Origin: Desulfoluna sp.
Lineage (GTDB): Bacteria; Desulfobacterota; Desulfobacteria; Desulfobacterales; Desulfolunaceae
Length of the DNA: 32,222 nucleotides
Direction of reading: 5' to 3'
Assembly (NCBI RefSeq): GCF_030145185.1
Contig: NZ_JAQYWB010000064.1
Location: forward strand, 1 to 32,222
Each line of letters starts with the position of its first letter. Within the stretch, counting starts at the first letter, position 1. The notes under the pieces are model-generated. The model did not search any database. It saw only the letters and a list, made by a program, of their open reading frames with translations, and was not told where the DNA came from. A program made the translations under genes and the position numbers. This document shows, piece by piece, positions 4,391 to 32,030 of this stretch.

Positions 4391-4611
4391 CCTTCAAGGT
4401 GGCACACCTTGCCGCCGGAGTTATTCCGGTTCATGTCAACCCGTGAATTGGCACTGAAGCACCGGCAGCTCATGCCCTTGCGACAGCCGTTGCCTTCCCT
4501 CAGCCATCACGCGAATGCGGAAGCGAGGTACCCGGAGTACCAGCCGCCGAAGAGCATTCGCAAACCCGCTTTCAAGGTGGCGCCACCTTGCCGCCGGAGG
4601 CCTGCTTTTTT
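4391..4611 (+). repeat. Dispersed structured repeat, copy R1 (long form)
   Basis: The right-hand core holds an outer stem GCGAATGCGG (4511-4520) with GCATTCGC (4554-4561), an inner small hairpin around GGTACCCGGAGTACC, then the 18-bp palindrome CAAGGTGGCGCCACCTTG (4573-4590), GCCGCCGGAGGC and a T-run ending at 4611. The left half (4391-4500) is a second, partial unit (TTCAAGGTGGCACACCTTGC, GCCGCCGGAGTTATTCCGG) shared with copy R3. It lies between convergent genes: just after the CoA-transferase stop and 6 bases before the stop codon of the exporter pseudogene. In the plus direction the GC-rich hairpin plus T-run could terminate the CoA-transferase transcript. Confidence 0.8.
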
Positions 4612-4617
4612 CAATCC

Positions 4618-5499
4618 TTATTTTTTAAGCAGAAAGACCCCGACAAAGATCATCCCGGTGGATAGAACGTCCATCAGCTCGATGGGCTCGCCCACAAGGA
4701 GCCACCCGATGAAAAGGGCGACCACCGGGGGCAGGTAGGTGACGGAGGATGCGGCCACGGCGCCCAGGGTCTCTACGATGTAGTAGTAGAGGATGTAGGC
4801 GAGGCCGGTGCCGAGGATGCCCAGGCCCACGATGAGGCCGATGGAGGCGTGGGGGTCGGTCCAGAGGGTACCGATTCCGGCGGTGTCTGTGAGAAGGGAC
4901 AGGATGAGAAGACCGAAGCCGAGCTGGTAGGTGGTCAGCGCCGCCGCCGGGATGCGCAAGGGGACGATAAACTTGCGGGCGTAGACAAAGGAGCCACCCA
5001 CGCTTAACGAGCCGGCGATCATGTAGCCGATCCCTTCCAGATTGGTGGTGAGCACTTCCTGGCCAGAGGGCCGGGCAATGAGCACCACACCTGCAAACGC
5101 GATGAGCACGCCGGTAATGTTGCGCACGGAGGCCTTCTCTTCAGGGATAAAAAGGAGGGCCATGATAAAGGCAAAAAGGGGGATCGCGCCGCTGACCGCC
5201 CCGGCAATGCCGGAGAGCAGCAAATCCGCGCCTTTCGAAAAGACGTCTTAGTAGAAGGCGGTGGCCAGGATGGACATCACGATAAAATGGTGCGCATGGC
5301 GAAGGTGACGCAGGTGGAGCGACCGCCTGGCCCCCGCATAGATCAGCACAGGGATCAACCCGAAGAGCACCCGGAATAAGACAATCTGCCCGGGCGATAT
5401 CAGGGCAACCGCCATTTTCATGTAGATAAAGTTGCTTCCCCAGACGGCTCCGAGAACGGCGAAAATAAGAAGGGGAAGATGTTTTCTCTGGGACGTCAT
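4618..5499 (-). pseudogene. EamA/DMT-family exporter interrupted by an in-frame TAA
   Basis: Read on the minus strand from ATG at 5499, the frame gives a typical drug/metabolite transporter start (LPLLIFAVLGAVWGSNFIYM) and stops at a TAA at 5250-5248 after ILATAFY. The same frame continues without shift through DVFSKGADLLLSGIAGAVSG to a normal end at 4618 (ASSVTYLPPVVALFIGWLLVGEP, then FVGVFLLKK). Together the parts make about 293 codons, the usual 10-helix two-EamA-domain length. Relatives normally have Tyr or Phe residues at the interrupted place, so a single base change of a TAC/TAT codon explains it. The second part has only a TTG at 5223 and no evident ribosome site. The gene would have been a broad inner-membrane exporter. 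A sequencing error or read-through are alternatives. Confidence 0.8.
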
Positions 5500-5552
5500 G
5501 GGTTGCGGGTCCTTATGGTGTGGAAAGAAGGAGCCTCTTTCGCATTACGAAT

Positions 5553-6059
5553 TTATTCAACGATAAGAACGTCTCCTGGTTCTGGAAGACGAAGTGCCAT
5601 TAACTCAGCGTCTTTGAGTTCTCGGCCAAACCATAGATAGGCCTTTCTGGCTCCCACGGCATACGATAATTTTATTAATGCCTTATTTTCACTGTGAGAG
5701 GGTGCCCCACCCATTTTTTTTGTTGGATGCATAATGATGATGGGTTTAACCCATTTCTTTCTTTCGGTAATTTTCGACATAAAATGCACCAACGTGGCGT
5801 GTGCAACGTCGAAATCACTTATGCCGCCTTCTGGATGAGAAAAACCATTATGAATCGAAATGTCAGGATTTGATGTCTTTTCAACGTCAGCCCCAATCGC
5901 AAGGATGATTTTTTTACCCTGCCTGTTTTTTTTTATCGCCAGAAGTGGCCTGTCTTCATACGTTTTCCCCGTTTCGACATGCTTCACGGACACCCAGTCA
6001 CCGCTGAATTTTATATAAAAAGTATGTCGAAAGAATGTGTCACACAAAAAATTAAGCAT
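5553..6059 (-). CDS. Small MreB-like (actin-fold) protein, partial domain
   Basis: This 168-residue soluble protein has no signal peptide. Its middle and C-terminal parts resemble the first subdomain of MreB: GGISDFDVAHATLVHFMSKI matches the conserved DG-(V/I)-I-A-D-F-(x)-V/A-(x)-M region, KPIIIMHPTKKMGGAPSHSE matches the RP-x-V-x-I-x-VP stretch, and KALIKLSYAVGARKAYLWFG matches the region where MreB has A-(x)-AGA-(x)-x-VYLI-E-P. The N-terminus (FSGDWVSVKHVETGKTYEDR, LLAI) fits the early beta strands. The phosphate-binding DLGT motif is not visible, and the whole second half of MreB is absent. Start ATG 6059 has AGGGAAGA upstream. It stands alone on the minus strand between an exporter pseudogene and the transport operon. 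Related short MreB-like proteins may exist in other bacteria, but I do not know a function. It could also be a decayed mreB duplicate. Confidence 0.5.
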   Translation of the reverse strand: MLNFLCDTFFRHTFYIKFSGDWVSVKHVETGKTYEDRPLLAIKKNRQGKKIILAIGADVEKTSNPDISIHNGFSHPEGGISDFDVAHATLVHFMSKITERKKWVKPIIIMHPTKKMGGAPSHSENKALIKLSYAVGARKAYLWFGRELKDAELMALRLPEPGDVLIVE

Positions 6060-6220
6060 GGTTTATCTTCCCTGAAGCCATCGAACGCGCACGGATGGGC
6101 TTGTGCTCCTGCGGCATGGGCGTGATCGTTTGAGGTGACCCGGTCCTTATACCCGCATACAAGGCCAGGTCCCTGGAGACGTCAGCATAGCATGACGAAT
6201 GGGGCTTGGAGGGCGTGCTT

Positions 6221-7429
6221 TTAAAAATCAGACTCAACGGTCCAGTCAAGCAATTGAACCGCACGGAGTTTCTTTGCGGTTTTTCGGTCCACCCCATAGA
6301 TGGTCTGGTAGAAATCGAGGACCCATTGATGAACCTTTATGTCGGCAAACCGGTCGGGGTATGCTGTTTTTGCGATGACCATCAAGTCGATGGGGTGTTC
6401 GATTCGTGATGCATCGCAGTTTGACGGGGTGAAGGGGAGGGCGCTGACGTTTTTTTCCCTCACCGCTTTCAGGTCCTGGAAATCCTGGTAGTAGGGAGCG
6501 TTGTAGATCTCTTCAGGGGGATGATACCCGAAGGACGTTGTGAGAATGAGAATGTCCGGGTTGATGGCGAAAACCTGTTCGGCGCTTAGCAATCCTGTGT
6601 CCGGGGTATGATATTTTACGTTGTACGCACTCTTCGCGTTGACGATCTCTTCGATATAATACTTGATGATGCCACTTCGGGCATTCCCGGCGCCTCCGGC
6701 GCTTCTGGCTTTGGATGAAAGCCCCAATGCCAGGACCCTTGGTTTTTGAGATTCGGGGACGTCCTTTGTTCTATCCTGAATGGCTTTGACGCTGTTTTGG
6801 AGAATGGCCGCGATCTGATTGGCTTTTTCTTCTTTGCCGAATATTTGGCCGATCAGGCGAATCTCTTCGGGGATTTTATTGAGATTCGGGGTGTCAAGGC
6901 ATGGGGGGGCAAACAGAGTGACAACGGGTATCCCAAGGGACTCAATGATGGTGATGTTTTTGGTCAGGATCTGGCTGGAGGTGCCCCAGGAGGCAGAGCA
7001 GGAACCGGCTCTTATAATGACGACATCCGGCTCCAGGCTCGCAAGGGTTTCAAAGTTGATCCCGCTTGCGTCTTTAACCAGGGGTAAATGGGCAAATCTG
7101 GGATTCAGATACCGGACAGGATTCATGCAGTCGGTATATGAGTAGTCCTTTCCTGAGATGCTGGGGATGGTATAACTGGATGTTTTTCTCAAGGATTTTG
7201 AGCCCAGTCCGACAATTTTTTTGGATTCCCCTAAAAGGGTGATGATCCCTTCGGTCAGCCCATCGTCTATGGTGACAATTCGGTGAAGGGTGGCCGGTAT
7301 TCTGACCTGTTCACCCCGGAGATCGGTGATGACCCGGTAGTCCTCGGCAGCCAGATTCTGTATGCCGATGGTAAAGAAAAAAAATAAAAAAAGAATGATG
7401 TATGCTGCGGAACCGCGAGTGGGTTTCAT
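6221..7429 (-). CDS. ABC transporter substrate-binding protein, FepB/BtuF class (paralogue 1)
   Basis: This 402-residue exported protein has a signal peptide at about residues 1-28 (hydrophobic YIILFLFFFFTIGIQNLAA, cleavage before EDYRV). It has the type III periplasmic binding fold signature of metal-chelate/corrinoid carriers: RVITDLRGEQVRIPATLHRIV at the start, LASLEPDVVIIRAG in the first lobe, LLSAEQVFAINPDILIL in the second, and EKNVSALPFTPSNCDASRIEHP near the end. It is clearly paralogous to the protein at 7671-8909; both share the MNPVxxLNP, GSC and SxGYHPPxExYxAPYYQ segments. It is last in the minus-strand operon, 241 bases after paralogue 2 and behind an inverted repeat. ATG 7429 has GGAG 8 bases upstream. 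The ligand is unknown; siderophore, haem, corrinoid or another metal chelate are possible. Confidence 0.85.
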   Translation of the reverse strand: MKPTRGSAAYIILFLFFFFTIGIQNLAAEDYRVITDLRGEQVRIPATLHRIVTIDDGLTEGIITLLGESKKIVGLGSKSLRKTSSYTIPSISGKDYSYTDCMNPVRYLNPRFAHLPLVKDASGINFETLASLEPDVVIIRAGSCSASWGTSSQILTKNITIIESLGIPVVTLFAPPCLDTPNLNKIPEEIRLIGQIFGKEEKANQIAAILQNSVKAIQDRTKDVPESQKPRVLALGLSSKARSAGGAGNARSGIIKYYIEEIVNAKSAYNVKYHTPDTGLLSAEQVFAINPDILILTTSFGYHPPEEIYNAPYYQDFQDLKAVREKNVSALPFTPSNCDASRIEHPIDLMVIAKTAYPDRFADIKVHQWVLDFYQTIYGVDRKTAKKLRAVQLLDWTVESDF

Positions 7430-7532
7430 GATGTCTGCTCCATCTCTAAAAATCTGTTGAGTATGCGTTTATTGGTCTTCGTCATCGTTTGGGCCGCGAC
7501 CTTCAAAAAAACCGAGAAAGATCGACCGAAAC

Positions 7533-7600
7533 GGAGCGCCGCACTCCGGTGCGGCTTTTTAGTCCGTCGTTACCCGTGCCGTACAGGAGTGCGGCGCTCC
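7533..7600. repeat. Intercistronic inverted repeat (15-bp perfect arms) between the two binding-protein genes
   Basis: GGAGCGCCGCACTCC (7533-7547) is the exact reverse complement of GGAGTGCGGCGCTCC (7586-7600), with a 38-base loop. Nested in the left arm, GCCGCAC TCCG GTGCGGC followed by TTTTT (7538-7560) forms a plus-strand terminator-like hairpin that competes with the long stem. In the operon direction (minus) the long stem is not followed by a T-run, so it looks more like a REP-type or mRNA-stabilising element than a terminator. Confidence 0.7.
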
Positions 7601-7670
7601 AGGGGACAAGGGTGTTCGGGGGGTGATGTAATACGCGGATGGCCCAAACGATGATCAAGGCCCGTTTATT

Positions 7671-8909
7671 CTATAAAATAAGGCCAGACGTTTCGTCTGC
7701 GGCGGGGCCGCCGGAGGCCTTTTTCAGGGTCCAGTCCATCCATTGGGCGGACCGGAGGCCTTGAGCCGTTTCCGTGTCCACCCCGTAGACATGTTGGTAA
7801 AAATCGAGCAGCCAGTCGGCCAGGTTCACATCCTGAAAACGTTTCGGATAGGATGCCTTGGCGATGACCATGGCGTCGATGGGATACTCCAGCCGTTTGG
7901 AGCAGTTGCAGGGAGACCAGGGCAGGGCGGCCACGCGTCTGTTCTTTACGGCCGAAAGATCTTGAAGGTTCTGGTAATAAGGGGCCTCATACAGCTCTCT
8001 TGGAGGATGGTAGCCAGAGGCTGTGCAGAGGACGATTACATCCGGATTCAAGGCCAGCAGCTGTTCTGCGTTGATCTTCTTGAAATAGCCCGATTCCCTG
8101 AAGGCGTTTCTGGCGTGGACGATCTCTTCCACGAAATGAGCCTCGATGGTGTTCAACCCGAACACCTGGCCCGCTCCGCCGGCTTTTCTCGCTCTGGGGG
8201 AGGGTCCGAAGACCAGGGTGGTGGGTTTCTCCTCTTCGGGAATGGATTGGGTCCTCTCCTGAATCATCGCCACCTGGGCCTGGAGATACCCGGCAAGTTC
8301 GAAAGCCTTGGCCCTCTTATTAAACACCTCCCCCACAATTCTGATCTCTTCTGAGATTCCGGAGACCGAAGGGGCCTTCCCGCAGTTGGTCCCATGGATC
8401 ACCACCACCGGAAATCCAAGGGCTTCCACCATTTCAATGGTCTTCGTGGCGGTTTCATCTCCTTCATAGCGAAGGGTGCAGGAGCCGATTCTCACGATCA
8501 CCACCTCCGGGTCCGCCTTGACCAGCGCCTCATAATTGATCGGGGTTCCGGATTTTGCCACCCGGGGCAGGTCCTTGATCCACGGGTTGAGGCGGAGTAC
8601 CGGGTTCATGCCGTCCTGGCAGGAAAAATTCTGTCCAGACACCGAAGGAAAAGAGTATTTGAAATGTCTCTGAAGGCACGATGACCCCACGGCGACCAGG
8701 GTCTCCTGGACGCCCAGGGCGGTCATGACCCCTTCCACAAGCCCGTCGCTGACCGTGGCCACCCGCTTGATCTCAGAGGGAATCGAGACCTGGATTCCGC
8801 GGCTGTCCACGACGGTCCGTTGGGGCTCGGCCAGGCAGGGTGCTCCCTGCAACGCAGTCACCAGCCAGACAAGGGTGAGGATCATAGGCAGGGTCGATTT
8901 TCCGGGCAT
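7671..8909 (-). CDS. ABC transporter substrate-binding protein, FepB/BtuF class (paralogue 2)
   Basis: This 412-residue exported protein has a signal peptide at about residues 1-28 (LPMILTLVWLVTALQGAPCLA). It has the same architecture as the protein at 6221-7429: VVDSRGIQVSIPSEIKRVAT at the N-terminus, LVKADPEVVIVRIGSC in lobe one, AEQLLALNPDVIVLCTASGY in lobe two, and a Cys-containing WSPCNCSKRLEYPIDAMVIA. Several cysteines (in FSCQDGMNP, GSCT, TNCGK, PCNC) are conserved-looking and unusual for this class; they may bind a metal or form disulfides. The start codon overlaps the stop of the methyltransferase gene as TAATG at 8911-8907, so the two are translationally coupled. It probably delivers a metal complex or tetrapyrrole-like ligand to the FecCD permease encoded upstream. 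Confidence 0.87.
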   Translation of the reverse strand: MPGKSTLPMILTLVWLVTALQGAPCLAEPQRTVVDSRGIQVSIPSEIKRVATVSDGLVEGVMTALGVQETLVAVGSSCLQRHFKYSFPSVSGQNFSCQDGMNPVLRLNPWIKDLPRVAKSGTPINYEALVKADPEVVIVRIGSCTLRYEGDETATKTIEMVEALGFPVVVIHGTNCGKAPSVSGISEEIRIVGEVFNKRAKAFELAGYLQAQVAMIQERTQSIPEEEKPTTLVFGPSPRARKAGGAGQVFGLNTIEAHFVEEIVHARNAFRESGYFKKINAEQLLALNPDVIVLCTASGYHPPRELYEAPYYQNLQDLSAVKNRRVAALPWSPCNCSKRLEYPIDAMVIAKASYPKRFQDVNLADWLLDFYQHVYGVDTETAQGLRSAQWMDWTLKKASGGPAADETSGLIL

Positions 8910-9841
8910 TATGACACTCCAATGCTGCTTTTTATGGGTGAAGGCGCGCGGCGGCTCAGCGAAGGAAGGCCCTTTTTGTCACGGGACTCCCCTGCGTTTT
9001 GTGAGGTGACGTCCCACCATATTTTTACCCGTGTCGATGAGTTTTTCTGGATCCAGTGGCCGTCTTTCTCCAAAAGGTTTTTCTCCAGATAATTTTTAAG
9101 CAGGGTCTCCTGGGCTTGGTTTTTTATCTGGTACCTGCGCTTGGACTGATCCACGGCATCTGCCAGGGAGTCATAGACGGTGTCGTGATCTATGGTGAAG
9201 ACCTCCATGTTTGGATAGATGCCCATCTGATAGAGCAGGTTGTACAGGGTGTCGCATCGGGGCATGGGAGTGTAGGGGGTGTTGTGGAGGGTTTTCCAGA
9301 GATATTGGGAGTGTTTGTCCCAGGCGGTTTCCCCGGCAAACCAGAGGAGGCAGACATAACGTGAAGAGACGTGAACCATTTTCTCGATGGCCGCTTTCAT
9401 GTTTTCCATGCCCAGGGAAAAAGAGGCAATCACCAGGTCGTAGGGGGGGAGCAGGTCGGTTTCGCAGCAGACCTCCTCCCATCTTTTCTGGACCAGATGA
9501 ATGTTGGTTCGCCCCGCTGCCCGGGCATGGTCTGTCAGGAGGTCCGTCATCCCTTCCGCAGGTTCCACGGCCGTCACCTGGGCGAACCGGCAGGCCATGG
9601 GAATGGCGAGGTTTCCAGGGCCGGCCCCTACATCCAGAATGCGTGAGTTGGCGCTTAAGTCAAACCCTGACAGCGTTCGCTCCAGGCGGTGATCCATATT
9701 TTTTCGGGTCATCTCCCAAAATCGTTTGGCAGCTGTTCGATCTTGCCACTGAGATCCGCAATCGTTCTGGATGATCTCGTTGTGTTTTCGAACCTGTTTA
9801 CTCCACACGTCATTCCAACGTTCTGCTGTATTGGCTTTCAT
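8909..9841 (-). CDS. Class I SAM-dependent methyltransferase inside the ABC transporter operon
   Basis: This 310-residue cytoplasmic protein has a class I Rossmann methyltransferase core. Motif I is ILDVGAGPGNLAIPMA (about residues 68-83), followed by an acidic strand VTAVEPAEGM that would bind the SAM ribose, and YDLVIASFSLGM in the motif IV position. The N-terminal 60 residues (WNDVWSKQVRKHNEIIQ and following) and the Lys-rich C-terminus are not recognised. It lies 42 bases after the ATPase gene and overlaps the following binding-protein gene by TAATG, so it belongs to the transport operon. A methyltransferase in this position could modify the imported ligand, or a chelator made by the cell, or detoxify it. 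The sequence does not show the substrate. Confidence 0.85.
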   Translation of the reverse strand: MKANTAERWNDVWSKQVRKHNEIIQNDCGSQWQDRTAAKRFWEMTRKNMDHRLERTLSGFDLSANSRILDVGAGPGNLAIPMACRFAQVTAVEPAEGMTDLLTDHARAAGRTNIHLVQKRWEEVCCETDLLPPYDLVIASFSLGMENMKAAIEKMVHVSSRYVCLLWFAGETAWDKHSQYLWKTLHNTPYTPMPRCDTLYNLLYQMGIYPNMEVFTIDHDTVYDSLADAVDQSKRRYQIKNQAQETLLKNYLEKNLLEKDGHWIQKNSSTRVKIWWDVTSQNAGESRDKKGLPSLSRRAPSPIKSSIGVS

Positions 9842-9883
9842 CCGTCTTTTTTACTCCATCATAAAAGGTTGTCTGCCTGTCTT

Positions 9884-15620: not shown

Positions 15621-15635
15621 GCAGTCCCCTCAGCC

Positions 15636-15740
15636 TTCACGCGAATGCGAACGCATTTCAGCCCGGAGTGATGACTCCCCGTGCGCATTCGCAAACCCGC
15701 TTTCAAGGTGGCGCCACCTTGCCGCCGGAGGCATGTTTTT
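15636..15740 (+). repeat. Dispersed structured repeat, copy R2
   Basis: Outer stem GCGAATGCG (15641-15649) with CGCATTCGC (15684-15692), the exact 18-bp palindrome CAAGGTGGCGCCACCTTG (15704-15721), then GCCGGAGGC and T-runs. It is the one full copy lying between two genes of the same direction (NCS1 permease and amidohydrolase), with its T-run side toward the downstream start codon. It could reduce or terminate read-through between the two. Confidence 0.8.
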
Positions 15741-15768: not shown

Positions 15769-17196
15769 ATGTTTGATCTTTTGATTCGCAATGGGCGTGT
15801 GGTCTCTACGGAGGCCACGGTTCGCACGGATGTGGCCATCAAGGACGGAAAAATTGTGGCGTTGGGGTTGTTTGACGACACGGTGACGGCAACCCGTGTT
15901 ATTGACGCCGACGGCAAGTATCTTCTCCCCGGGATCGTGGATGCTCATATGCATGTTGAGGCCCCTTTTCAGGGCTGTTTCGGGGCCAATGATTTCTTTT
16001 CGCAGAGTGTCTCGGCCGTGTTTGGCGGCGTGACCACCATCATGGATTTTACCAACACCTTCCCGGGAGATTCGGTGAAGGTTCAGCTGGAGAAACGCAT
16101 TGAGGAGATGAGCAAATCGGCGGTGGACTTTGGGGTTCACTGCAAATTTGTGGAGGCACCTGAGGCGATCCTCAAGGAGATCCCCGAGATTATCAAGATG
16201 GGGTGCCCTTCCTTCAAGATGTTCATGACGTACCGCAAAGAAGGCGTGATGTCCGATGATGAGACCCTGCTGAAAATTTTCAAGCTGGCCAAGGAGCACG
16301 GGGGGCTGCCTTTGATTCACGCCGAGTCCAATGCCATCGCCGAGAGCAATATTGAGGCGTCACGCGCGGCCGGCACTCTGGGCTGGACCGATTTTGCCAA
16401 GGCCAAGCCTGTCCTTTGCGAGACCGAAGCGGTGAGCCGTGCCGTGCTCTTCAGTAAATATTGCGGCAATGCCCTGCTGCTGGTCCATACCACCAATGAG
16501 CCATCACTGGATATCGCCCGGACCGCACAGGCCGAAGGACACCCCATCTATGTGGAAACCTGTCCCCATTATCTCACTCTTTTTAAGGACCTTTATGAAG
16601 ATGAGGCGCGAGGTCATCTGACCATCTGCTCTCCTCCCCTGCGGACGCAGGTGGAGGCTGATGCCTTGTGGAAGGGGCTCGCCGACGGCTCCATCTGCGT
16701 GACCGGCTCGGATGACTGCACCTACTCTGTGGAAGAGAAGGAGATGTTCCTCGAAAAGGATGCCGATGGGACCATCATTCCCGATTTTACCAAGGTGGTG
16801 AACGGTCTCTCCGGCCTGGAAGTCCGTCTGCCGATTTTACTCTCCGAAGGCGTGGCCAAGGGCCGTCTCAGCCTGAATCGGCTGGTGGCGCTTACCAGCA
16901 CCAACGTGGCCAAGCTCTCGGGGTGCTACCCGCAAAAGGGCATCCTCGCGCCGGGAAGTGATGCGGATATCACCCTGGTGGATCTGGATCGGGAGTGGAC
17001 GCTCTCTGCCGAGACGCTTCACAACAACATCGATTACTGCCTGCATGACGGCCTGAAGATTAAGGGCGGTGTAGAGATGACCATCGCCTGTGGCAAGGTG
17101 GTGATGGAGGAGGGTCAATTTAAAGGGAAACGCGGAGAAGGCCGGTTCCTTCATCGGCGTATCGACGAAGAGATCCTCTCCGGATACGCTTTGTAG
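15769..17196 (+). CDS. Dihydropyrimidinase/D-hydantoinase-family amidohydrolase
   Basis: This 475-residue cytoplasmic metal-dependent hydrolase should open cyclic amides such as dihydropyrimidines or hydantoins. The binuclear metal ligands are all visible: His60 and His62 in DAHMHVE, the carbamylated Lys150 in PSFKMFMTY, His184 in LIHAES, His240 in LVHTTN and Asp315 in TGSDDC. The length fits (family about 460-490). The usual TDH after the last ligand is replaced by SDDC, a small difference. The start at 15769 follows GAGGA with an 8-base spacer; a longer frame beginning at 15733 reads into the T-run of repeat R2 and is rejected. It pairs with the NCS1 permease upstream. A hairpin with T-run at 17279-17326 ends the unit. 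Allantoinase or dihydroorotase-like activity is less likely. Confidence 0.9.
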   Translation: MFDLLIRNGRVVSTEATVRTDVAIKDGKIVALGLFDDTVTATRVIDADGKYLLPGIVDAHMHVEAPFQGCFGANDFFSQSVSAVFGGVTTIMDFTNTFPGDSVKVQLEKRIEEMSKSAVDFGVHCKFVEAPEAILKEIPEIIKMGCPSFKMFMTYRKEGVMSDDETLLKIFKLAKEHGGLPLIHAESNAIAESNIEASRAAGTLGWTDFAKAKPVLCETEAVSRAVLFSKYCGNALLLVHTTNEPSLDIARTAQAEGHPIYVETCPHYLTLFKDLYEDEARGHLTICSPPLRTQVEADALWKGLADGSICVTGSDDCTYSVEEKEMFLEKDADGTIIPDFTKVVNGLSGLEVRLPILLSEGVAKGRLSLNRLVALTSTNVAKLSGCYPQKGILAPGSDADITLVDLDREWTLSAETLHNNIDYCLHDGLKIKGGVEMTIACGKVVMEEGQFKGKRGEGRFLHRRIDEEILSGYAL

Positions 17197-17278
17197 GCTC
17201 GCAACGGAACGTCCCTTCCTGGGACGATGGAAAAAGGCCTTCGGCAGGCAGGGGATACATCTCCTGCACCCCAGGTTT

Positions 17279-17326
17279 GCGAATGTGATCAGCCCTTGTA
17301 CCTCGGTCTGATCACATTTGCTTTTT
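17279..17326 (+). terminator. Intrinsic terminator after the amidohydrolase gene
   Basis: GCGAATGTGATCAG (17279-17292) pairs with CTGATCACATTTGC (17308-17321), with one mismatch or G-T pair, a 15-base loop and then TTTTT at 17322-17326. It lies about 80 bases after the amidohydrolase stop codon. Confidence 0.75.
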
Positions 17327-17366
17327 GAGATGTATTAAGGCTTGTTTGTTGACCTTTTCAAGCGTT

Positions 17367-17521
17367 TAGCCCGGATATTTCATGAGAAAACAATCAAGAC
17401 TAAGGACTCATCCGTAATGGCAGTTCTTCGCAGTCATATTTTCAGTCGTTTCAAAAATGCAAAATGTAATCCACGGTATTCTGTCTGATTTTCTCACCCA
17501 ACCCGTGAAATATCCGGGTTA
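17367..17521. mobile_element. MITE-like element, copy A (155 bp)
   Basis: The left end TAGCCCGGATATTTCATGAG (17367-17386) and the right end CGTGAAATATCCGGGTTA (17504-17521) are imperfect inverted repeats of about 18-20 bp. No coding sequence fits inside. The same ends, and an internal block TTCAAAAATGCAAAATGTAA, occur in copy B at 20068-20317, with unrelated or diverged sequence between. Two copies 2.5 kb apart with shared termini are best explained by a non-autonomous transposable element. The source transposase is not in the window. Confidence 0.75.
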
Positions 17522-17545
17522 GCCCCCGGCAGGAACGCCGGAGGC
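17519..17545 (+). repeat. 27-nt hairpin repeat, copy 1
   Basis: TTAGCCCCCGGCAGGA then ACGCCGGAGGC matches the reverse complement of 26544-26570 in 26 of 27 positions, and similarity continues weakly for about 12 more bases. CCCCGGC and GCCGGAGG can pair across the short loop. It abuts the right end of MITE copy A. Confidence 0.6.
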
Positions 17546-20031: not shown

Positions 20032-20067
20032 GGCGATGGGGTTCCCCTCGTTGGTCGCGAGCTGTTT

Positions 20068-20317
20068 TAGCCCGGATATTTCATGAGAAAGCTATTGTGC
20101 CAAGTCAATATGATGTTATTACAGCCGTTTGTATGGAAAATTTAGATACTTCAAAAATACAAAATGTAATTCACCATTTTATGCTCGCCATTCTCACCCT
20201 TCGGGCGAGCCGAGTGCACCCATCTTCTGCGTTATCAGAGCTTTGAGGTAAACCACTACATCTGCAGCTCTGATGCCTTGAATATGGATGCACTCAACTC
20301 GTGAAATATCCGGGTTA
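20068..20317. mobile_element. MITE-like element, copy B (250 bp, with nested palindrome)
   Basis: Its ends, TAGCCCGGATATTTCATGAG (20068-20087) and CTCGTGAAATATCCGGGTTA (20298-20317), are the same as those of copy A. Copy B has about 95 extra bases near the right end. In that insert GAGTGCA (20212-20218) pairs with TGCACTC (20289-20295), and ATCAGAGCT (20234-20242) pairs with AGCTCTGAT (20266-20274), so it forms its own long hairpin. It lies between the divergent LPP20-type and ecotin genes and may influence their promoters. Confidence 0.75.
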
Positions 20318-20359
20318 GGCAGCCCGTTCATTCGAATGCATTTATTAGATGACAATGAC

Positions 20360-22704: not shown

Positions 22705-22816
22705 GATCGATGAATTCTCCATGTTTGATATCCGGTTGAGTCCCAGAGAGTAAGAAAAGCACAAAAGGGCATCATTTTAGCGATGAGGTGCATCTCCTTG
22801 TCATGGCCGGCGTGTT

Positions 22817-25075: not shown

Positions 25076-25087
25076 GGCAGGAAACTT

Positions 25088-25328
25088 GCTTTCAAGGTGT
25101 TTTTGGCTAAGTGGCTTCAACATCCTTGCCGCCGGAGTTATTCCGGTTAATGTCAACCCATGAGTTAATACGGAAGCACCGGTAACTTGTGCGCTTGCGA
25201 CACATGAGGTACCCCTTCACCCTCTTCACGCGAATGCGGACGCGGGGTGCCGCAAGTACCGATAGCCGAGGAGCATTCGCAAACCCGCTTTCAAGGTGGC
25301 GTCACCTTGCCGCCGGAGGCATTTTTTT
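25088..25328 (+). repeat. Dispersed structured repeat, copy R3 (long form)
   Basis: The outer stem is GCGAATGCGG (25230-25239) with GCATTCGC (25273-25280). The palindrome CAAGGTGGCGTCACCTTG (25292-25309) has one changed base in its centre; GCCGCCGGAGGC and ATTTTTTT follow. The left half (25088-25200), with GCCGCCGGAGTTATTCCGG, matches the left half of R1. It sits between the convergent NYN and LysO-type genes, with the T-run 30 bases before the LysO-type stop. Confidence 0.8.
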
Positions 25329-25358
25329 GGCCCCTTTAACCATAGAAGGCCGTTTTTT

Positions 25359-26265: not shown

Positions 26266-26299
26266 GTGTCACTCCAGAAAGACAGTTAAAAAGCGCCGG

Positions 26300-26351
26300 A
26301 AAAAAAGGCTCCAGCCGCAAGGTGTGGCCGTGAGCGCGGGGTTTCGCATGC
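26300..26351 (-). repeat. Degenerate copy R7 of the dispersed repeat
   Basis: On the plus strand AAAAAAGGCTCC, then GCCGCAAGGTGTGGCC and GCGGGGTTTCGCATGC align with the reverse form of the full copies (A-run, GCCTCCGGCGGC, AAGGTGG palindrome, GCGGGTTTGCGAATGC). The palindrome arms no longer match fully. Confidence 0.5.
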
Positions 26352-26487
26352 AGGATAGGCCTCGGCGCGTTTTATCTCTTCACCACACCAGCGGATATAA
26401 AAGAACCCGTGGTGCTTGTCAATAGAGCGAAAAGGATGGGGGCGGGAGGGTAACGTCTGTGGAGGAGAGGACTGCGTTGGGTTGGGG

Positions 26488-26523
26488 GGCGGTTTCAAGG
26501 TGGGAGCCTCTTGCAGCCGGAAG
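26488..26523 (+). repeat. Degenerate copy R8 of the dispersed repeat
   Basis: GGCGGTTTCAAGGTGGGAGC then CTCTTGCAGCCGGAAG resembles the palindrome part of the full copies (CCCGCTTTCAAGGTGGCGCC, ACCTTGCCGCCGGAGG). The outer stem and T-run are missing. Confidence 0.45.
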
Positions 26524-26543
26524 TTTGTAACTATTCATCTTAC

Positions 26544-26570
26544 GCCTCCGGCGGTCCTGCCGGGGGCTAA
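26544..26570 (-). repeat. 27-nt hairpin repeat, copy 2
   Basis: This is the reverse complement of 17519-17545 with one mismatch in 27 bases (GCCTCCGGCGGTCCTGCCGG then GGGCTAA), and the neighbouring bases ATTCATCTTAC also agree partly with copy 1. Confidence 0.6.
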
Positions 26571-26648
26571 ACTTTTGCCTGATTTTATTAAGACGGGTTT
26601 AACAAACAGGTCTTAAAAAATTCTTCTTGAATGAATTTTGTTTTAAAT

Positions 26649-26768
26649 GCGGATGTGATTTGACCCGAGGAATCCGTCTTCGCCTGCGGCTACGCCGTGA
26701 CATTGGGGCAAAGCGCATCCGCAACCTGCTTTCAAGGTGGCACACCTTGCCGCCGGAGGCTTTTTTTT
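26649..26768 (+). repeat. Dispersed structured repeat, copy R4
   Basis: The outer stem here is GCGGATG (26649-26655) with CATCCGC (26716-26722), so both arms have changed together relative to R1-R3. AAGGTGGCACACCTT, GCCGCCGGAGGC and eight Ts (26761-26768) follow. The T-run ends 24 bases before the stop codon of the CcdA-like gene. Confidence 0.75.
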
Positions 26769-26791
26769 GAGCTGAATAGTGACGGAAGTTT

Positions 26792-27505: not shown

Positions 27506-27853
27506 CGCGGGTCTCCTGTGGTTGCGTGAATCAGGTGAACAGAGGTGAAAAAAAGGTAACTATTTGGCTTCATCCTGTCTCTGGCAGGTCTCTTTTTGGA
27601 AAAAATTTCGCAAAAACGTTTCAGCCCGTAGGGTGCGGCACCCGCACCGTTCACCGTCACGCAAACCGCCGGCCCCGTCTCAACACGTATCACAAAATGC
27701 AGCGTTGCAGGTTTATCGGACGTTAAGCGGTGCGCACGGCGCACCCTACTTTTCACATCGATACGGTTTCCTTCGTCATCGACCCTTCCGTACCGGTGTG
27801 CGGCGATTGGGTGGCTTAAGCTGATTCGTTATGATTTATTTTTGCTCCGGCCT
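27506..27853. other. Intergenic region between CcdA-like and thioredoxin genes
   Basis: No gene is supported. It carries the REP-like element at 27628-27749 and a small hairpin CCTG/CAGG followed by TCTCTTTTT at about 27569-27590. The spacing makes it uncertain whether the CcdA-like and thioredoxin genes share a transcript. Confidence 0.5.
27628..27749. repeat. REP-like element with inverted ends (about 122 bp)
   Basis: The left end GTAGGGTGCG-GCACCCGCACC and the right end GGTGCGCACG-GCGCACCCTAC are inverted relative to each other. The end sequence GTAGGGTGCG with a following CGCACC hairpin resembles REP-type repeats that occur in many proteobacteria. No coding sequence inside. Confidence 0.6.
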
Positions 27854-28240
27854 TTATTTCGTCCCCGGTTTTTTGACTCCAAGATCTTTAAGGATTGCGA
27901 CGATCCCCTTCTTGTCGATGAATCCCACATGGCGCTTCACCTCTTTTCCGGTTTTGTCATAGAAAATCTGGGTGGGGATGGCGCGGATGCCGTATTTTTG
28001 CGCCTGGCTTCGGTTTTCTTTGATGTCGATGAAGAGGATGGAGGCCTTCCCCTGGTACTCTTTCTGCAGGTCGGTGATGATGGGAGCCATCATCTTGCAG
28101 GGGATGCAGGTGTGGGCGCCCAGGTCCAGCATGGTGACCATGTTCTTCGTCGGCACCTCAGGGAGGATGGCTGAGCCTCCAAAGGCCGGGGCCGTTGTCA
28201 GGCAGAGCAGGGTTGTGAGGCAGAAAATGAGTCGTTTCAA
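27854..28240 (-). CDS. Exported thioredoxin-family protein
   Basis: This 128-residue protein has a signal peptide (KRLIFCLTTLLCLTTAPAFG, about residues 2-21) and a thioredoxin fold. The active site is HTCIPC with Cys45 and Cys48, preceded by VTMLDLGA and followed by KMMAPIITDLQKEY; the cis-proline is in IRAIPTQIFYD. The likely start is TTG at 28240, 6 bases after GGAG; a longer TTG-initiated frame from 28261 puts extra residues before the signal peptide. It should act in the periplasm as a thiol reductase and would receive electrons from the CcdA-like protein encoded downstream. In arsEFG-like loci similar thioredoxin-fold proteins are ArsE/ArsF partners; that equivalence is inference. Confidence 0.87.
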   Translation of the reverse strand: MKRLIFCLTTLLCLTTAPAFGGSAILPEVPTKNMVTMLDLGAHTCIPCKMMAPIITDLQKEYQGKASILFIDIKENRSQAQKYGIRAIPTQIFYDKTGKEVKRHVGFIDKKGIVAILKDLGVKKPGTK

Positions 28241-28309
28241 GGATGTCTCCAATTGGCTCAAAGGTGTGTGGGTGTCAGCGGTGTGGCATGGGCCACGCGC
28301 GGATCGGCA

Positions 28310-28543
28310 TCAGGCGGTAATCCAGGTGATCACATCTTCTTTTTTGGGGATCTTGCCCACGCTTTTGACCTCTTCGTTTACCACAACAGCAGGCGTTCCG
28401 AACACACCGTAAGAGCCGATGGCCAGAAGATCGGTGATTTTTTCTACGGTGGCGGTAACGCCTGCTTCAGCCACGGCTTCTTTGACAATGGCTTCTGTTT
28501 TGCTGCACTTGCTGCATCCGGGTCCGAGGACTTTGATGATCAT
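28310..28543 (-). CDS. Small thioredoxin-like redox-active disulfide protein
   Basis: This 77-residue cytoplasmic protein belongs to the small redox-active disulfide/MTH895-like group: it starts MIIKVLGPGCSKCSKTEAIV with active Cys10 and Cys13, then has VTATVEKITDLLAIGSYGVF and GTPAVVVNEEVKSVGK with the cis-proline. The start at 28543 follows AAGGAG with a 7-8 base spacer; a frame from 28564 is rejected. Such proteins are often encoded next to UPF0718 permeases and ArsR repressors, as here, and are thought to pass electrons to or sense thiol-reactive metalloids. It is 69 bases before the thioredoxin gene and 172 bases after the permease gene, with repeat R5 in the gap. Confidence 0.87.
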   Translation of the reverse strand: MIIKVLGPGCSKCSKTEAIVKEAVAEAGVTATVEKITDLLAIGSYGVFGTPAVVVNEEVKSVGKIPKKEDVITWITA

Positions 28544-28628
28544 GGGGGTTCTCCTTTGTTTCATGACGGTTTGTAGACATGAACGTTGGGTTCATGCAAA
28601 AAAATAGATACATAAATCTTATCAAAAT

Positions 28629-28717
28629 GCCGCTGTGATTTCACCCGAGAAACGAGGGTTAAATCACAGCGGCAACGCGCTTTCGAGGTGGCTCACCTCG
28701 CCGCGGAGGCTGTTTTT
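28629..28717 (+). repeat. Dispersed structured repeat, copy R5
   Basis: The outer stem is an exact 13-bp pair GCCGCTGTGATTT (28629-28641) and AAATCACAGCGGC (28661-28673). The second stem is CGAGGTG-GCT-CACCTCG (28684-28700), where both sides differ from AAGGTG/CACCTT of the other copies and still pair. CGCGGAGGC and a T-run follow; the T-run runs into the TTA that is the stop codon (28718-28716) of the minus-strand permease gene. Confidence 0.75.
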
Positions 28718-29882
28718 AAATCGCCCCGTAGATCATCCCTGCGATGGTGGACATGACCACCACGATGGAGACGAAGACGGCCGTTTTCTTGACTCCCATG
28801 ACCCCGCTGATGACGATCATGTTGGGCAGCGAGAGAGCTGGGCCTGCCAGGAGCAGGGCCAGGGCCGGGCCCTTGCCCATGCCGGACCCCATGAGTCCCT
28901 GAAGAATGGGGATCTCGGTGAGGGTGGCAAAGTACATGAGGGCGCCGGAGAGCGAGGCAAACAGGTTGGCGGAGAGAGAGTTGCCGCCCACGAGGTTTGC
29001 GATCCACGCTTCGGGGATAAGGGCCGGGTGGCCGGGGCGTCCCAGGAGGAAGCCTGCCGCCAGGACCCCGATGGCCAGCATGGGGAAAATCTGCTTCATA
29101 AAGCCCCAGGAAGAGTCCACCCATTCGGTGCGTTCATCGCTGTCAAACCAGCGTTTCAGCATCCAGGCCAGGACGAGGAGGAGGCCCCCTGTCACATACC
29201 ACTTGGTCTTGAAGATGGTCTGCCAGATGATGCCTTCATCGGCGCCGGGCTTGGCAAAGGCGGCGAAGATGAGGATCAGGACCATGACCCCCATAAACGT
29301 GCCGTCTTGAAGGAGGGTGCGCCCCTGGCCGTCTTCATCGGGGAGGTGCATGGGACCCTTGGCACGGGCCACGTCATCCTTTCGGAAGATGAAGGCCATG
29401 AGAAGGCCGATGATCAGGGCAAAACAGATGGCGCCGATGGCTCGGGCCAGGCCCATCTTCCATCCGAGGATGCGTCCGGTGAGGATGATGGCCAGAACGT
29501 TGATGGCGGGGCCGGAGTAGAGAAAGGCCGTGGCCGGACCGATGCCCGCGCCCCGGGAGTAGATACCGGCAAAGAGGGGCAGAACCGTGCAGGAGCAGAC
29601 CGCCAGAATAGCTCCAGAGACGGAGGCCACGGAGTAAGCGAGGACCTTTTTCGCCTGGGCGCCGAAGTATTTCAGGACCGAGGCCTGGGAGATGAAGACG
29701 CTGATGGCTCCGGCGATGAAGAAGGCGGGCACCAGGCAGGTGAGCACGTGCAGGCGGGCGTACTCCTGCAGCATCAAAAAGGCCTCCATGCCTGCCTGAC
29801 GAATGGTGGGAGAGGTCCAAGGCATAAAGTAGATGGCAAGGTAAAGTCCGACAATCCAGGCTAATTTCGTACGTTCTTTCAT
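28716..29882 (-). CDS. UPF0718/ArsP-like membrane permease
   Basis: This 388-residue inner-membrane protein has about ten hydrophobic segments of PF03773 (YraQ/ArsP_1) type. The first half has VPAFFIAGAISVFISQASVL and the key GAILAVCSCTVLPLFAGIYS with Cys96 and Cys98, then GAGIGPATAFLYSGPAINVL. The second half repeats the pattern weakly (GGNSLSANLFASLSGALMYF and GKGPALALLLAGPALSLPNM). Members of the family export trivalent organoarsenicals or related metalloids, with the paired cysteines as candidate ligands. The gene is preceded by an ArsR-type repressor gene, and an operator-like motif lies about 90-110 bases before its start. The stop codon overlaps the T-run of repeat R5. Start ATG 29882 has a weak ribosome site (GGAA). 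Confidence 0.87.
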   Translation of the reverse strand: MKERTKLAWIVGLYLAIYFMPWTSPTIRQAGMEAFLMLQEYARLHVLTCLVPAFFIAGAISVFISQASVLKYFGAQAKKVLAYSVASVSGAILAVCSCTVLPLFAGIYSRGAGIGPATAFLYSGPAINVLAIILTGRILGWKMGLARAIGAICFALIIGLLMAFIFRKDDVARAKGPMHLPDEDGQGRTLLQDGTFMGVMVLILIFAAFAKPGADEGIIWQTIFKTKWYVTGGLLLVLAWMLKRWFDSDERTEWVDSSWGFMKQIFPMLAIGVLAAGFLLGRPGHPALIPEAWIANLVGGNSLSANLFASLSGALMYFATLTEIPILQGLMGSGMGKGPALALLLAGPALSLPNMIVISGVMGVKKTAVFVSIVVVMSTIAGMIYGAI

Positions 29883-29971
29883 AACAGCGTTCCATGATGG
29901 GGGCGGTGTGACGATCCGGCAGCCGGTTTTAAGGTGCCGGACAGTGCGCGACCGTCGGGGTTAGTGTTCCT

Positions 29972-29993
29972 ATATATTGCCATGTGTCGATAT
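29972..29993. promoter_or_regulatory. ArsR-type operator motif, site A (in front of the permease)
   Basis: ATATATTGCCAT, four bases, then CGAT (29972-29991) matches site B in front of arsR with identical spacing. The flanks TATAT and ATATA are symmetric, giving an imperfect palindrome. It lies in the 281-base gap between arsR and the permease, so the permease probably has its own ArsR-controlled promoter. The rest of the gap holds short GC hairpins and direct repeats (CCAAGCA twice near 30120) but no gene. Confidence 0.65.
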
Positions 29994-30163
29994 ATTTGAG
30001 CCCAGCGTAACGTAACGCGTGCCCTGTACGGTCAACCTTCCAGGGCATGGGCTCCTTGTTCGTCGTTCCATGATGTTGCTGCGTTGATCTTTTTGAATGC
30101 CGGAGCGAATCGACTCCGAAACCAAGCACCAAGCACCACGAACGAAGAACCTTTTTTTCCGGA

Positions 30164-30508
30164 TCAGCCTCGGGTGATGAACTCTCTGTCGATGCCCGGG
30201 AGCCTGTCCAGCATCTCCCGGATGTCCTCATCGGCTTCGAGCCATTCGTTGACTTGTGCCAGCATTTCCCGGGCATAGGTGTTGTCCGGTCGTCCATTGA
30301 GCTGAAAGTTGACCCAGAGGCCATCTTTTTCATAGCTCACCAGCCCGGCCTCTTCCAGGACCTTGAGGTGCTTGCTCACCGTGGACTGGGCCAGGCCCAG
30401 GGCTTCTTTCAGTTCGCAAACGCAAAGAGACCGATGTTGCAGGGCCTTGACAATCTTCACCCGGCTGGGGTCGGACAGGGCCTTCATCACTTTGATAAAC
30501 GGTTTCAT
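30164..30508 (-). CDS. arsR: ArsR-family metalloid-responsive transcriptional repressor
   Basis: This 114-residue winged-helix protein has the ArsR/SmtB layout: IKVMKALSDPSRVKIVKALQ at the start, recognition region LAQSTVSKHLKVLEEAGLVS with the wing YEKDGLWVNFQL. The second helix holds Cys29 and Cys31 in LCVCEL, the place of the arsenite-binding CVC of classical ArsR proteins. Thus repression released by As(III) or Sb(III) is expected. The start at 30508 follows GGGAG. A sigma70-type promoter with the operator over its -10 lies directly upstream, which suggests autorepression, and a second copy of the operator controls the permease region. It is co-directional with permease, thioredoxins and CcdA-like gene, forming one functional set. 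Confidence 0.9.
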   Translation of the reverse strand: MKPFIKVMKALSDPSRVKIVKALQHRSLCVCELKEALGLAQSTVSKHLKVLEEAGLVSYEKDGLWVNFQLNGRPDNTYAREMLAQVNEWLEADEDIREMLDRLPGIDREFITRG

Positions 30509-30537
30509 CGGAAACTCCCTGATTTTTACGCTTCATT

Positions 30538-30559
30538 AAATCGTTATATGGCAATATAT
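30538..30559. promoter_or_regulatory. ArsR-type operator motif, site B (in front of arsR)
   Basis: On the minus strand ATATATTGCCAT, four bases, then CGAT lies over the -10 and start region of the arsR promoter, 30-50 bases before the start codon. It equals site A (29972-29993) at 12 of 12 leading bases and at the CGAT, with the same gap. Confidence 0.7.
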
Positions 30560-30581
30560 GGTTTGGACCACCGGGTGTCAA
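30553..30581 (-). promoter_or_regulatory. Sigma70-type promoter of arsR
   Basis: On the minus strand TTGACA (30581-30576), a 17-base spacer and TATATT (30558-30553). The -35 is perfect and the -10 is 5 of 6. The -10 is part of operator site B. Confidence 0.8.
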
Positions 30582-30696
30582 CCTCAAAAGTGATGCCCCC
30601 TGTTTTGTGGCTGTGCCTTATATAACACAGGATGAGGTATTTAGGGCGGAAGGAACCGGCGTTCCGGCCAGGCCGTGTTTAATTTACTGATGACCT

Positions 30697-30725
30697 TTGA
30701 CAACCCGTGGATTTCGGCTTATTTT
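30697..30725 (+). promoter_or_regulatory. Sigma70-type promoter of the aldolase gene
   Basis: TTGACA (30697-30702), a 17-base spacer and TATTTT (30720-30725). A start of transcription near 30732 would give a leader of about 65 bases before ATG 30797. Confidence 0.65.
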
Positions 30726-30796
30726 CTTCACTTAAATTGAATGAGACATACCGGTGGAAGACAGCCGGGCAGAAAGAAATCATGGAGGATGTTCGG

Positions 30797-31831
30797 ATGG
30801 ATACAGGGATGATCAGTTTGGCCAGTGACAACTATGCGGGGGCACATCCCGAGATCGTGGCGGCGGCGGGGGCTGCGGCAGCAGGCACTGCCGGAGCATA
30901 CGGTGCGGACCCCTGGACGGCCCTGGCCGAGGCGCGGTTCAGGAAAATTTTCGGGGAGGAGAGCTCCGTTTTTTTTGTGATGACCGGCACCGCTGCCAAT
31001 GTCCTTGCCATCGACGCCGTGACCCGGCCCTTTGAGTCGGTGCTGATCTCCGATTGTGCTCACATGCATATGGACGAGTGCGGCGCGCCAGAGCGGTTCA
31101 CCGGCAGCAAGTTTATTGTGGTGCCTTCTGAAAAGGGAAAACTCACCGTGGACGGACTTCGGCCCTGGGTGGAACGGGAGGCCGACTATCACCGATCCCG
31201 CCCCAAAGTGGTTTCCCTTACCCAGACCACCGAGTACGGAACCGTCTACACGGTCTCTGAGATCAAGGCCATCACCGATTACGCTCATGAGAACGGGCTT
31301 CTCGTTCACATGGACGGCTCCCGTATCTCAAACGCCGCCGAAGCCCTGGGACTGGATTTCGCCGCCTTTACAAAGGAGGCCGGGGTAGATTTTCTCTCTT
31401 TTGGAGGCACCAAAAACGGGATGATGTTCGGCGAGGCCGTGGTCTTTTTCTCCCACGAGGTTGACGACGCCTTTCAATACACCCGCAAGCAGGGCATGCA
31501 GCTCGTCTCCAAGATGCGCTTCGTGGGTGCCCAGTTCGAGGCGTTTTTAAAAGACGGCCTCTGGAAGCGAAACGCCGCCCACGCCAATGCCATGGCCCAA
31601 AAGATGGCTGAAGCCCTGACCCGGGTTCCCGGCGTCACCCTCACCCAGCCCGTGGAGGCCAACGCCGTCTTCGCCATTCTTCCTGTGGCGATGATCGAAA
31701 AGCTCCATAAAAAGTTTCACTTCTACGTCTGGGACAACCAGACAGGCGAAGTGCGCCTCATGGCCTCTTTTGCCACCACCGCCGAAGAGATTCAAACCTT
31801 TGCTGAAGAGATTCAAGGTATGACTGTTTAA
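30797..31831 (+). CDS. Low-specificity threonine aldolase-type PLP enzyme (beta-eliminating lyase family)
   Basis: This 344-residue cytoplasmic enzyme of PLP fold type I is expected to cleave L-threonine or allo-threonine to glycine and acetaldehyde. Family marks: ISLASDNYAGAHPEIVAAAG at the start, MTGTAANVLAI for the phosphate-side loop, HMHMDECGAPE, LVHMDGSRISNAAEALG with the PLP-pairing Asp, and the Schiff-base Lys206 in FGGTKNGMMFGE. Length is normal (about 340). The start at 30797 is set by GGAGG 8 bases before it; longer frames reach to 30707 and overlap the promoter. It has its own promoter, divergent to arsR. Repeat R6 lies directly after the stop codon. A related beta-eliminating lyase activity cannot be excluded. 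Confidence 0.88.
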   Translation: MDTGMISLASDNYAGAHPEIVAAAGAAAAGTAGAYGADPWTALAEARFRKIFGEESSVFFVMTGTAANVLAIDAVTRPFESVLISDCAHMHMDECGAPERFTGSKFIVVPSEKGKLTVDGLRPWVEREADYHRSRPKVVSLTQTTEYGTVYTVSEIKAITDYAHENGLLVHMDGSRISNAAEALGLDFAAFTKEAGVDFLSFGGTKNGMMFGEAVVFFSHEVDDAFQYTRKQGMQLVSKMRFVGAQFEAFLKDGLWKRNAAHANAMAQKMAEALTRVPGVTLTQPVEANAVFAILPVAMIEKLHKKFHFYVWDNQTGEVRLMASFATTAEEIQTFAEEIQGMTV

Positions 31832-31841
31832 GGCTTCAGGC

Positions 31842-32030
31842 AAAAAAGCCTCCGGCGGCAAGGTGGCGCCACCTTGAAAGCGGGTTTGCGAATGCGCTGC
31901 GGGTGTCGGGACTCCGGGCACCTCGCGTCCGCATTCGCGTGAAGGTCGAGGGGTTGCGCATGTCGCGGCGAAGCTGGCTTTTCCAAGCGAAGCTGAACGC
32001 GTAGACTGATCGTGCGTCGCAAGCGCATGC
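31842..32030 (-). repeat. Dispersed structured repeat, copy R6 (reverse orientation, extended)
   Basis: On the plus strand it reads A-run (31842-31847), GCCTCCGGCGGC, the exact palindrome CAAGGTGGCGCCACCTTG (31859-31876), GCGGGTTTGCGAATGCGC (stem arm 31888-31897) and the partner GCATTCGC (31931-31938). A further shared piece, the reverse of GCGCTTGCGAC found in R3 (and a diverged form in R1), lies at 32016-32026. It starts 10 bases after the aldolase stop. Between it and the heptamer array (about 32031-32116) I see nothing else. Confidence 0.8.

Follow-up and report, generated by a model that had tools for sequence, protein, structure and literature searches.

What kind of sequence stands again and again at the ends of genes, keeping its fold while its bases change? 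The question is raised by a 32,222-nt stretch of DNA (contig NZ_JAQYWB010000064.1 of RefSeq assembly GCF_030145185.1, positions 1 to 32,222; here called the window) from Desulfoluna sp., a marine sulfate reducer. A sequence-only reading of the window had described six copies, R1 to R6, of a repeat built from two stems and a run of T. All six are present, and all six are matched by a covariance model of the family, with scores of 99.1 bits (R5), 84.7 (R4), 65.0 (R6), 60.7 (R2), 55.3 (R3) and 52.0 (R1); the model was built from 61 genus copies including R5, so that R5's own match is by construction. The repeats are probably mobile but non-autonomous DNA elements that form one family throughout the genus and lie at terminator-like sites, similar in kind to REPINs, which are paired repetitive extragenic palindromic (REP) sequences, and to miniature inverted-repeat transposable elements (MITEs). 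The data establish amplification, outward pairing, conservation of the fold on one strand and turnover between species.

The family extends far beyond the window. A search of the window's genome with the core of R1 gave at least 54 matches, with 40 of 611 candidates scored. The exact core hairpin occurs 378 times in this 5.8-Mb genome and the same pattern written backwards not once, so the repeats are not a product of chance. Searching this and related genomes with the covariance model confirmed the family and showed that the window contains only a small part of it: five of the six genus genomes (the window's own included) hold at least 150 matches each, and the sixth holds 13. The exact hairpin is abundant in Desulfoluna. 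Among 146 genomes (103 genera) of the order it is matched in the window's own genome and one congener, with no match in the 144 other genomes sampled across the order. Named genomes hold at least 100 hairpin stretches, and those listed are all from Desulfoluna limicola, D. butyratoxydans, D. spongiiphila or the metagenome-assembled genome Desulfobacteraceae GLD-1. Other hairpins carry the same terminus: CCAGGGG..CCCCTGGCCGCCGGAGG is found 22 times in the window's genome (control 0), and among 395 genomes of the phylum it also turns up in two from a single other genus, with 5 and 8 occurrences. The same end, a hairpin followed by GCCGCCGGAGGC, is also present in a distant genus. In the viral contigs of IMG/VR the stem-1 loop motif is matched exactly 65 times and the hairpin motif once. 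A literature search over titles and abstract openings, covering few subscription journals, returned nothing on these repeats in Desulfoluna or Desulfovibrio among the matches listed. At the start of one contig (L071; G000:C11:1-160), hairpin-2 units are arranged head to tail with a 38-nt period.

The plan of the element is clearest in an alignment of 61 copies (A1), hand-picked as 60 of 117 type-A candidates plus R5. A stem 1 of 17 pairs with the apical loop GAGGAACGA is followed by a linker AACCnGC and by hairpin 2, which reads AAGGTG/CACCTT or GAGGTG/CACCTC. Hairpin 2 is preceded by GCTTT and followed by GAGGC, and these two pair over a six-base bulge, CCGCCG. Pairing is kept in 95.9% of 1751 cells. 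Both bases have changed with pairing retained in 194 cells, compared with 55.6 (standard deviation 8.6) in shuffled alignments and 16–40 in slid controls, which bears out on a larger sample the compensatory stem changes first read from the window. The shuffles preserve column make-up and ignore the relatedness of copies; for that reason the count of 0 in 500 shuffles cannot be read as a probability. The two kinds of mismatched pair are unequally represented. In stem 1, G·U outnumbers A·C by 58 to 8 in A1 and by 169 to 18 in A2, an alignment of 132 copies fitted to the model; in hairpin 2, A1 gives 123 to 0, mostly from two pairs that hardly vary, and A2 gives 267 to 2. The excess thus identifies the folding strand as the one with the T-run at its end, whether the folded molecule is RNA or single-stranded DNA. 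When four window copies were folded as RNA, the minimum-energy folds of R2, R4 and R6 partly re-paired hairpin 2: in this predicted alternative GCUUUC joins GGUGGC, and GCCGCC-GGAGGC closes immediately before the U-run. The A1 form of hairpin 2 has support from covariation at the A-T/G-C pair, and the two forms may be alternatives of each other.

The fold resembles no family in Rfam at gathering thresholds. Sub-threshold Rfam matches at R3, R4 and R5 are not counted as support; one of them, on the minus strand of R4, aligns with the P8 small RNA (RF01682) over its full length, but its 25.9 bits lie far under the gathering score of 60, and P8 has no match at R3 or R5. A protein-coding reading of the elements was dropped on inspection by eye: the common unit length, 179 nt, is not divisible by three, and a stop codon interrupts the apparently repeated frame in many copies. 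Repeats of this sort carry a general caution, namely that covariation among dispersed copies does not necessarily imply a functional host RNA.

The usual unit consists of two outward-facing ends, about 170–190 nt in all, a REPIN-like plan. Among 449 ends in 100 stretches, neighbours up to 700 nt apart face outward in 133 cases, inward in 23 and in tandem in 51. Without pairs up to 60 nt apart (9 outward and 9 inward, some possibly one palindrome counted twice) the counts are 124, 13 and 48. Within 5 kb upstream of the right end, 177 of 444 right ends (a total that includes overlapping loci) have a left end GCCTCCGGC..GCCGGGGGC, in 113 of these at a distance of 110–220 nt; left ends of the opposite orientation, used for comparison, gave 98 pairs with 14 at that distance. 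The distinct units number 116. They are bounded by GCCTCCGGCGGC and GCCGCCGGAGGC, and the left end, read on the opposite strand, is itself a right end. Two window copies are composites in which an additional hairpin end is joined to a complete unit of 179 or 181 nt, here called unit C. At R1, a right-end hairpin (R1a, 4391..4420, plus strand; 31.0 bits over model positions 67-95) with terminus GCCGCCGGAG abuts a 179-nt unit C (4421..4599, plus), which runs from TTATTCCGG through stem 1 and hairpin 2 to CCGCCGGAG; GGAG lies immediately to its left and GC to its right, and the covariance model matches 4497-4607 (plus). At R3, a right-end hairpin with enlarged loop (R3a, 25088..25137, plus) and terminus GCCGCCGGAG precedes a 181-nt unit C (25138..25318, plus), again with GGAG immediately left and GC right. 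The model match there (25222-25326, plus) is followed by the T-run and then by a motif CTTTAACCATAGAAGGC at 25334-25350. Of 48 matches to this motif across loci L079-L178, 31 are close to an element end, all of them on its strand, and 21 of the 31 begin 8–11 nt past the end.

Traces of insertion are of two kinds. Some units are bracketed by ends resembling GTAACTATTCAGC, as is the case at R4. Here R4 itself (26647..26766, plus: stem 1 GCGGATG/CATCCGC with enlarged loop, hairpin 2, GCCGCCGGAGGC and T-run) and the left end of the same inner unit, a hairpin GCCTCCGGC..GCCGGGGGC facing outward on the minus strand (26544..26567), are enclosed in a MITE-like outer unit of 257 nt (26527..26783, plus) with inverted ends GTAACTATTCA / TGAATAGTGAC that differ by one mismatch. 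On each side of the outer unit stands GGAAGTTT, a target duplication of 8 bp without a mismatch (26519..26526 on the left, 26784..26791 on the right). In the whole sample, 39 pairs of GTAACTATTCAGC-like ends lie 150–330 nt apart, and exact duplications flank them as follows: 8 bp in 12 pairs, 7 bp in 1, 9 bp in 0, 3 bp in 4 and 2 bp in 2. GTAACTATTCAGC ends also enclose other interiors. Unit C provides the second kind of trace. It starts with TTATTCCGG or a near variant, immediately after GGAG in 25 of 37 cases, GGAA in 3, GAAG in 3 or a similar site; these cases come mostly from the window's own genome, whose loci were fetched using unit C. The sequence upstream of the left junction is varied, the right flank is GC in 32 of 34 cases, and insertion occurs without duplication at a palindromic junction, CCGGAG|TTATTCCGG.

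Orthologous sites in relatives differ in what they hold. The R5 site of D. butyratoxydans has no family end, and the flanking alignments there are ~32 nt apart; in D. limicola and D. spongiiphila the site is occupied by other units. The sites of R2, R3, R4 and R6 are without a family end in one relative (G147). The R6 site has none in D. spongiiphila, and in D. limicola and D. butyratoxydans it is occupied by other elements, whose orientation is the same. In D. butyratoxydans the gene before R3 is followed by a native terminator, with no family end within ~390 nt downstream. At four further loci, three relatives carry elements with a different stem 1 or of a different type, and one has a much shorter unit. 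Empty and differently filled sites, the 8-bp duplications and the position of unit C after GGAG together uphold the proposal that this is a mobile structured element targeting gene ends.

The placement itself, with the T-run end towards the stop codon, also holds on larger samples. Within the window, as judged by mechanically called open reading frames, five of the six named copies are so oriented, the exception being R2 (15627..15738, plus; stem 1 GCGAATG/CATTCGC, hairpin 2 and GCCGCCGGAGGC, by covariance model). R5 (28615..28716, plus) combines stem 1 GCCGCTGTGATTT/AAATCACAGCGGC with hairpin 2 GAGGTG/CACCTC and a T-run, and R6 (31842..31946, minus) has stem 1, hairpin 2, GCCGCCGGAGGC and a T-run towards the stop at 31831. 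A seventh copy, R7, was overlooked by the sequence-only reading (17231..17335, minus; 36.5 bits, E 1e-7, covariance model). It is decayed, its hairpin 2 is of another sequence type (CAGG../..CCTG), and its T-run end is directed towards the stop at 17196, making six of seven. Two decayed copies had also been mentioned; for these there are only weak candidates, at 2121-2198 (13.2 bits, E 0.06, covariance model) and at 26490-26521 (a hairpin remnant of 78% identity). Gene context was counted for 176 of 223 model matches with a home-made gene caller (76% coding; 32 matches at stretch edges), in stretches selected for carrying the hairpin. Five of the 176 copies lie inside called genes. Those with two neighbours (139) stand between convergent genes in 37 cases, tandem genes in 97 and divergent genes in 5, compared with 45, 266 and 67 of 378 element-free spaces. 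The median distance to the facing stop is 24 nt from the T-run end (92 cases) and 180 nt from the opposite end (79 cases). When any family end up to 300 nt away is counted, other hairpin types included, the GGAGGC terminus of the nearest end points to the stop at 183 of 218 gene ends and in the opposite direction at the other 35.

From these data a scheme of transfer between sites can be proposed. (i) The basic module is the end: stem 1, in which bases are free and pairing is kept, AACCnGC, hairpin 2, a short CCGCC linker and the terminus GGAG|GC. (ii) A trans-acting enzyme would recognize the folded end on the T-run strand. (iii) The enzyme would insert the end next to G(G/A)AGGC-T-run sequences that resemble terminators and lie at gene ends; most of these targets would be terminators or copies already in place. 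(iv) New units would stack into older ones or displace them, so that orthologous sites come to have different interiors. (v) A resident copy could serve as an intrinsic, partly bidirectional terminator, and copies at gene ends would be tolerated for this reason. Two routes of transposition are possible, one of the DDE type for the outer MITE and another, specific to the ends, for unit C. Some units would have been captured by a separate MITE family of the DDE type.

Judged from its sequence, the family appears to work like REPINs, and in part like MITEs and the palindrome-associated transposable elements (PATEs) of the IS200/IS605 group. Two reports describe REPINs as outward-inverted palindrome pairs with conserved ends, variable interiors and compensatory changes, with singlet remnants and with stacking (PMC3116915, PMC8266576). 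The present family shares these features, as it does the basic plan of REPINs and bacterial interspersed mosaic elements: hundreds of intergenic palindromes, with outward-inverted pairs as the unit, singlets as remnants and stacked units. It differs in having two hairpins per half and 170-190 nt, in a tag GGAG on the 3′ side of the hairpin where REP sequences have GTAG on the 5′ side, and in that none of the 15 Y1_Tnp loci of its own genome carries a gene resembling a REP-associated tyrosine transposase (RAYT) with family ends on both sides. Because the GTAG tag and the linkage to a RAYT both fail in this genome, the family is not classed as REP. The outer unit of R4, with its inverted ends and exact duplication, and the occurrence of many copies without a gene are MITE-like, whereas many hairpin modules lie outside GTAACTATTCAGC ends, the inner unit has no duplication and the parent transposon was not found at the loci covered below. 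PATEs, as presented in one report (PMC7290912), resemble unit C in their hairpin ends, in insertion next to a tetranucleotide without duplication and possibly in guide pairing; here, by contrast, no transposase copy with matching ends was found in the window's own genome, and no orientation bias was seen in 29 listed positions of G146. Further literature for comparison is PMC3733652, PMC2817692 and PMC12306157.

Several results weigh against the mobile-element reading. Neither an autonomous copy nor an enzyme was found in the searches of the window's own genome, a draft in 152 contigs. This genome contains 15 matches to Y1 transposases of several families (L031-L045), some of whose loci stop at contig ends; within the stretches fetched around them, an end-like motif lies on one side of 8 of these loci and on both sides of none, so Y1 transposases are not supported as mobilizers. 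Nor are the two IS66 genes, which lack GTAACTATTCAGC ends at both loci and in one of the two have a family end-like motif on one side. No autonomous transposon with GTAACTATTCAGC ends was present at the IS66 loci or among the end positions listed (about half of 202 in the window's genome, and 35 in genome G146 minus one facing pair 5.2 kb apart), and the 28 segments enclosed by outward ends had no recurring gene. Exact duplications are kept at only 12 of the 39 candidate outer units. The inner units have none, the longest flank match in 116 units being 3 bp. Replacement of interiors at orthologous sites could also stem from gene conversion between copies. Lastly, a hand count of 29 listed positions in G146 by chromosome half gave 16 of one orientation and 13 of the other (origin assumed at position 1, terminus midway), which counts weakly against a lagging-strand, single-stranded DNA route. 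The suggestion that the repeats are substrates for a repeat-specific nuclease or recombinase is compatible with the data, and the enzyme part of it was not borne out among the Y1, IS66 and integrase genes examined.

How far could immobile host sequences explain the same facts? The elements might be bidirectional intrinsic terminators of host origin, standard in the genus, which selection for termination would maintain and recombination would spread. Like intrinsic terminators, many of them have a GC-rich hairpin followed by a T-run at gene ends, and terminator activity of resident copies is plausible in some orientations. TTTT occurs within 16 nt of 215 of 447 ends (232 are without it) and in 6.7% of random 16-mers drawn from whole stretches, coding DNA included. 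The alternative RNA fold predicted for R2, R4 and R6 would place a GC-rich stem against the U-run, the strand singled out by the G·U excess is the one leading into this run, and outward pairs fit bidirectionality. A native hairpin with T-run stands ahead of the element at 12 of 183 ends whose terminus faces the stop, compared with 49 of 228 element-free gene ends. The sense copies, with terminus away from the stop, are no different from element-free genes in this respect (8 of 35), and where a copy lies between tandem genes its orientation does not follow transcription (42 sense, 55 antisense). By eye, other hairpin types (CAGGGG..CCCCTG) are unable to form a direct stem before the U-run. The long two-stem form and the variable presence between species also set the family apart from ordinary terminators. 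Presence and absence between species and exact 8-bp duplications require transposition. We consider a host origin unlikely.

Transposition by a known class of enzyme is the other type of explanation. In IS200/IS605-type (HUH) elements, the subterminal hairpins would form the ends, the guide GCTTT would pair with the cleavage site GGAG, and insertion would follow 3′ of GGAG or GAAG without duplication. The unit C junctions, the GCTTT-GAGGC pairing, the palindromic CCGGAG|TTATTCCGG, the Y1 genes and the one-strand G·U excess all agree with such a system. The Y1 loci do not, given that none has ends on both sides and that L037 has GTAG-type repeats instead (by eye); the 29 listed positions in G146 show no orientation bias, and the outer unit duplicates 8 bp, a product that HUH enzymes are not known to generate. 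The assignment is quite unlikely. Sites of an integron-like or other site-specific recombinase, comparable to attC hairpins, are highly improbable. They would account for the hairpin ends and for unit C being stacked in tandem. The genome also has one gene of the integron-integrase type (L336:7952-9139; G000:C42), which scores above its family cut-off. This gene has an internal stop, and its 10.7-kb surroundings contain two family ends and no attC-like array, so it too is not supported as mobilizer; the right junctions are G|GC and not the G|TT of attC sites, and neither inspection of A1 by eye nor a search of the integrase contig showed RYYYAAC/GTTRRRY boxes. Beyond the favoured reading of a mobile family of REPIN/MITE kind, a more specific proposal is possible but doubtful: a novel class of terminator-parasitic element, whose end is cut at GGAG|GC. 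On either strand it would target the G(G/A)AGGC-T-run arm of terminators or earlier copies, take the place of the host terminator and itself provide termination, and a DDE-type MITE family would use its units as cargo. If this were true, gene-end landscapes would be rewritten between species. Both the question of what moves REP-like hairpins and that of terminator replacement are directly testable, given the hundreds of copies per genome, the availability of several sequenced species, the empty sites, the exact duplications and the GGAG|GC junction. The family is a natural experiment in the origin of short palindromic repeats, the retention of a fold despite sequence change and arrival at gene ends.

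Some minor observations concern other repeats and genes. Locus L037 has GTAG-tagged inverted repeats on both sides of its Y1 gene (by eye) and is perhaps a true RAYT/REP system. The genome has three reverse transcriptase matches, scanned for the terminus only. In D. limicola a reverse transcriptase gene with the look of a group II intron by eye (L128:5646-8000) lies between two outward family ends; class C introns insert beside terminator hairpins. In the window, a second-type end GCCCCCGGCAGGAACGCCGGAGGC (17522..17545, plus) is the inverted counterpart of the composite unit's left-end hairpin. A second repeat family of ~250 nt with inverted ends TTTAGCCCGGATATTTCATGAG / CTCGTGAAATATCCGGGTTAG is seen at 20066-20319 and 17365-17522, and many copies of it occur in at least four of the six genus genomes. 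The repeat of ~280 nt at 27556-27844 has inverted repeats GTAGGGTGCG..CGCACCCTAC and the look of a GTAG-type REP; copies related to it are enclosed by GTAACTATTCAGC-like ends, and the accompanying 8-bp duplication is exact in L291 and has one mismatch in L286. A tandem array of the 7-mer TTTAGCC closes the contig (32107-32222) and recurs in L305 and L035, and similar arrays are found in D. limicola and next to a Y1 gene.

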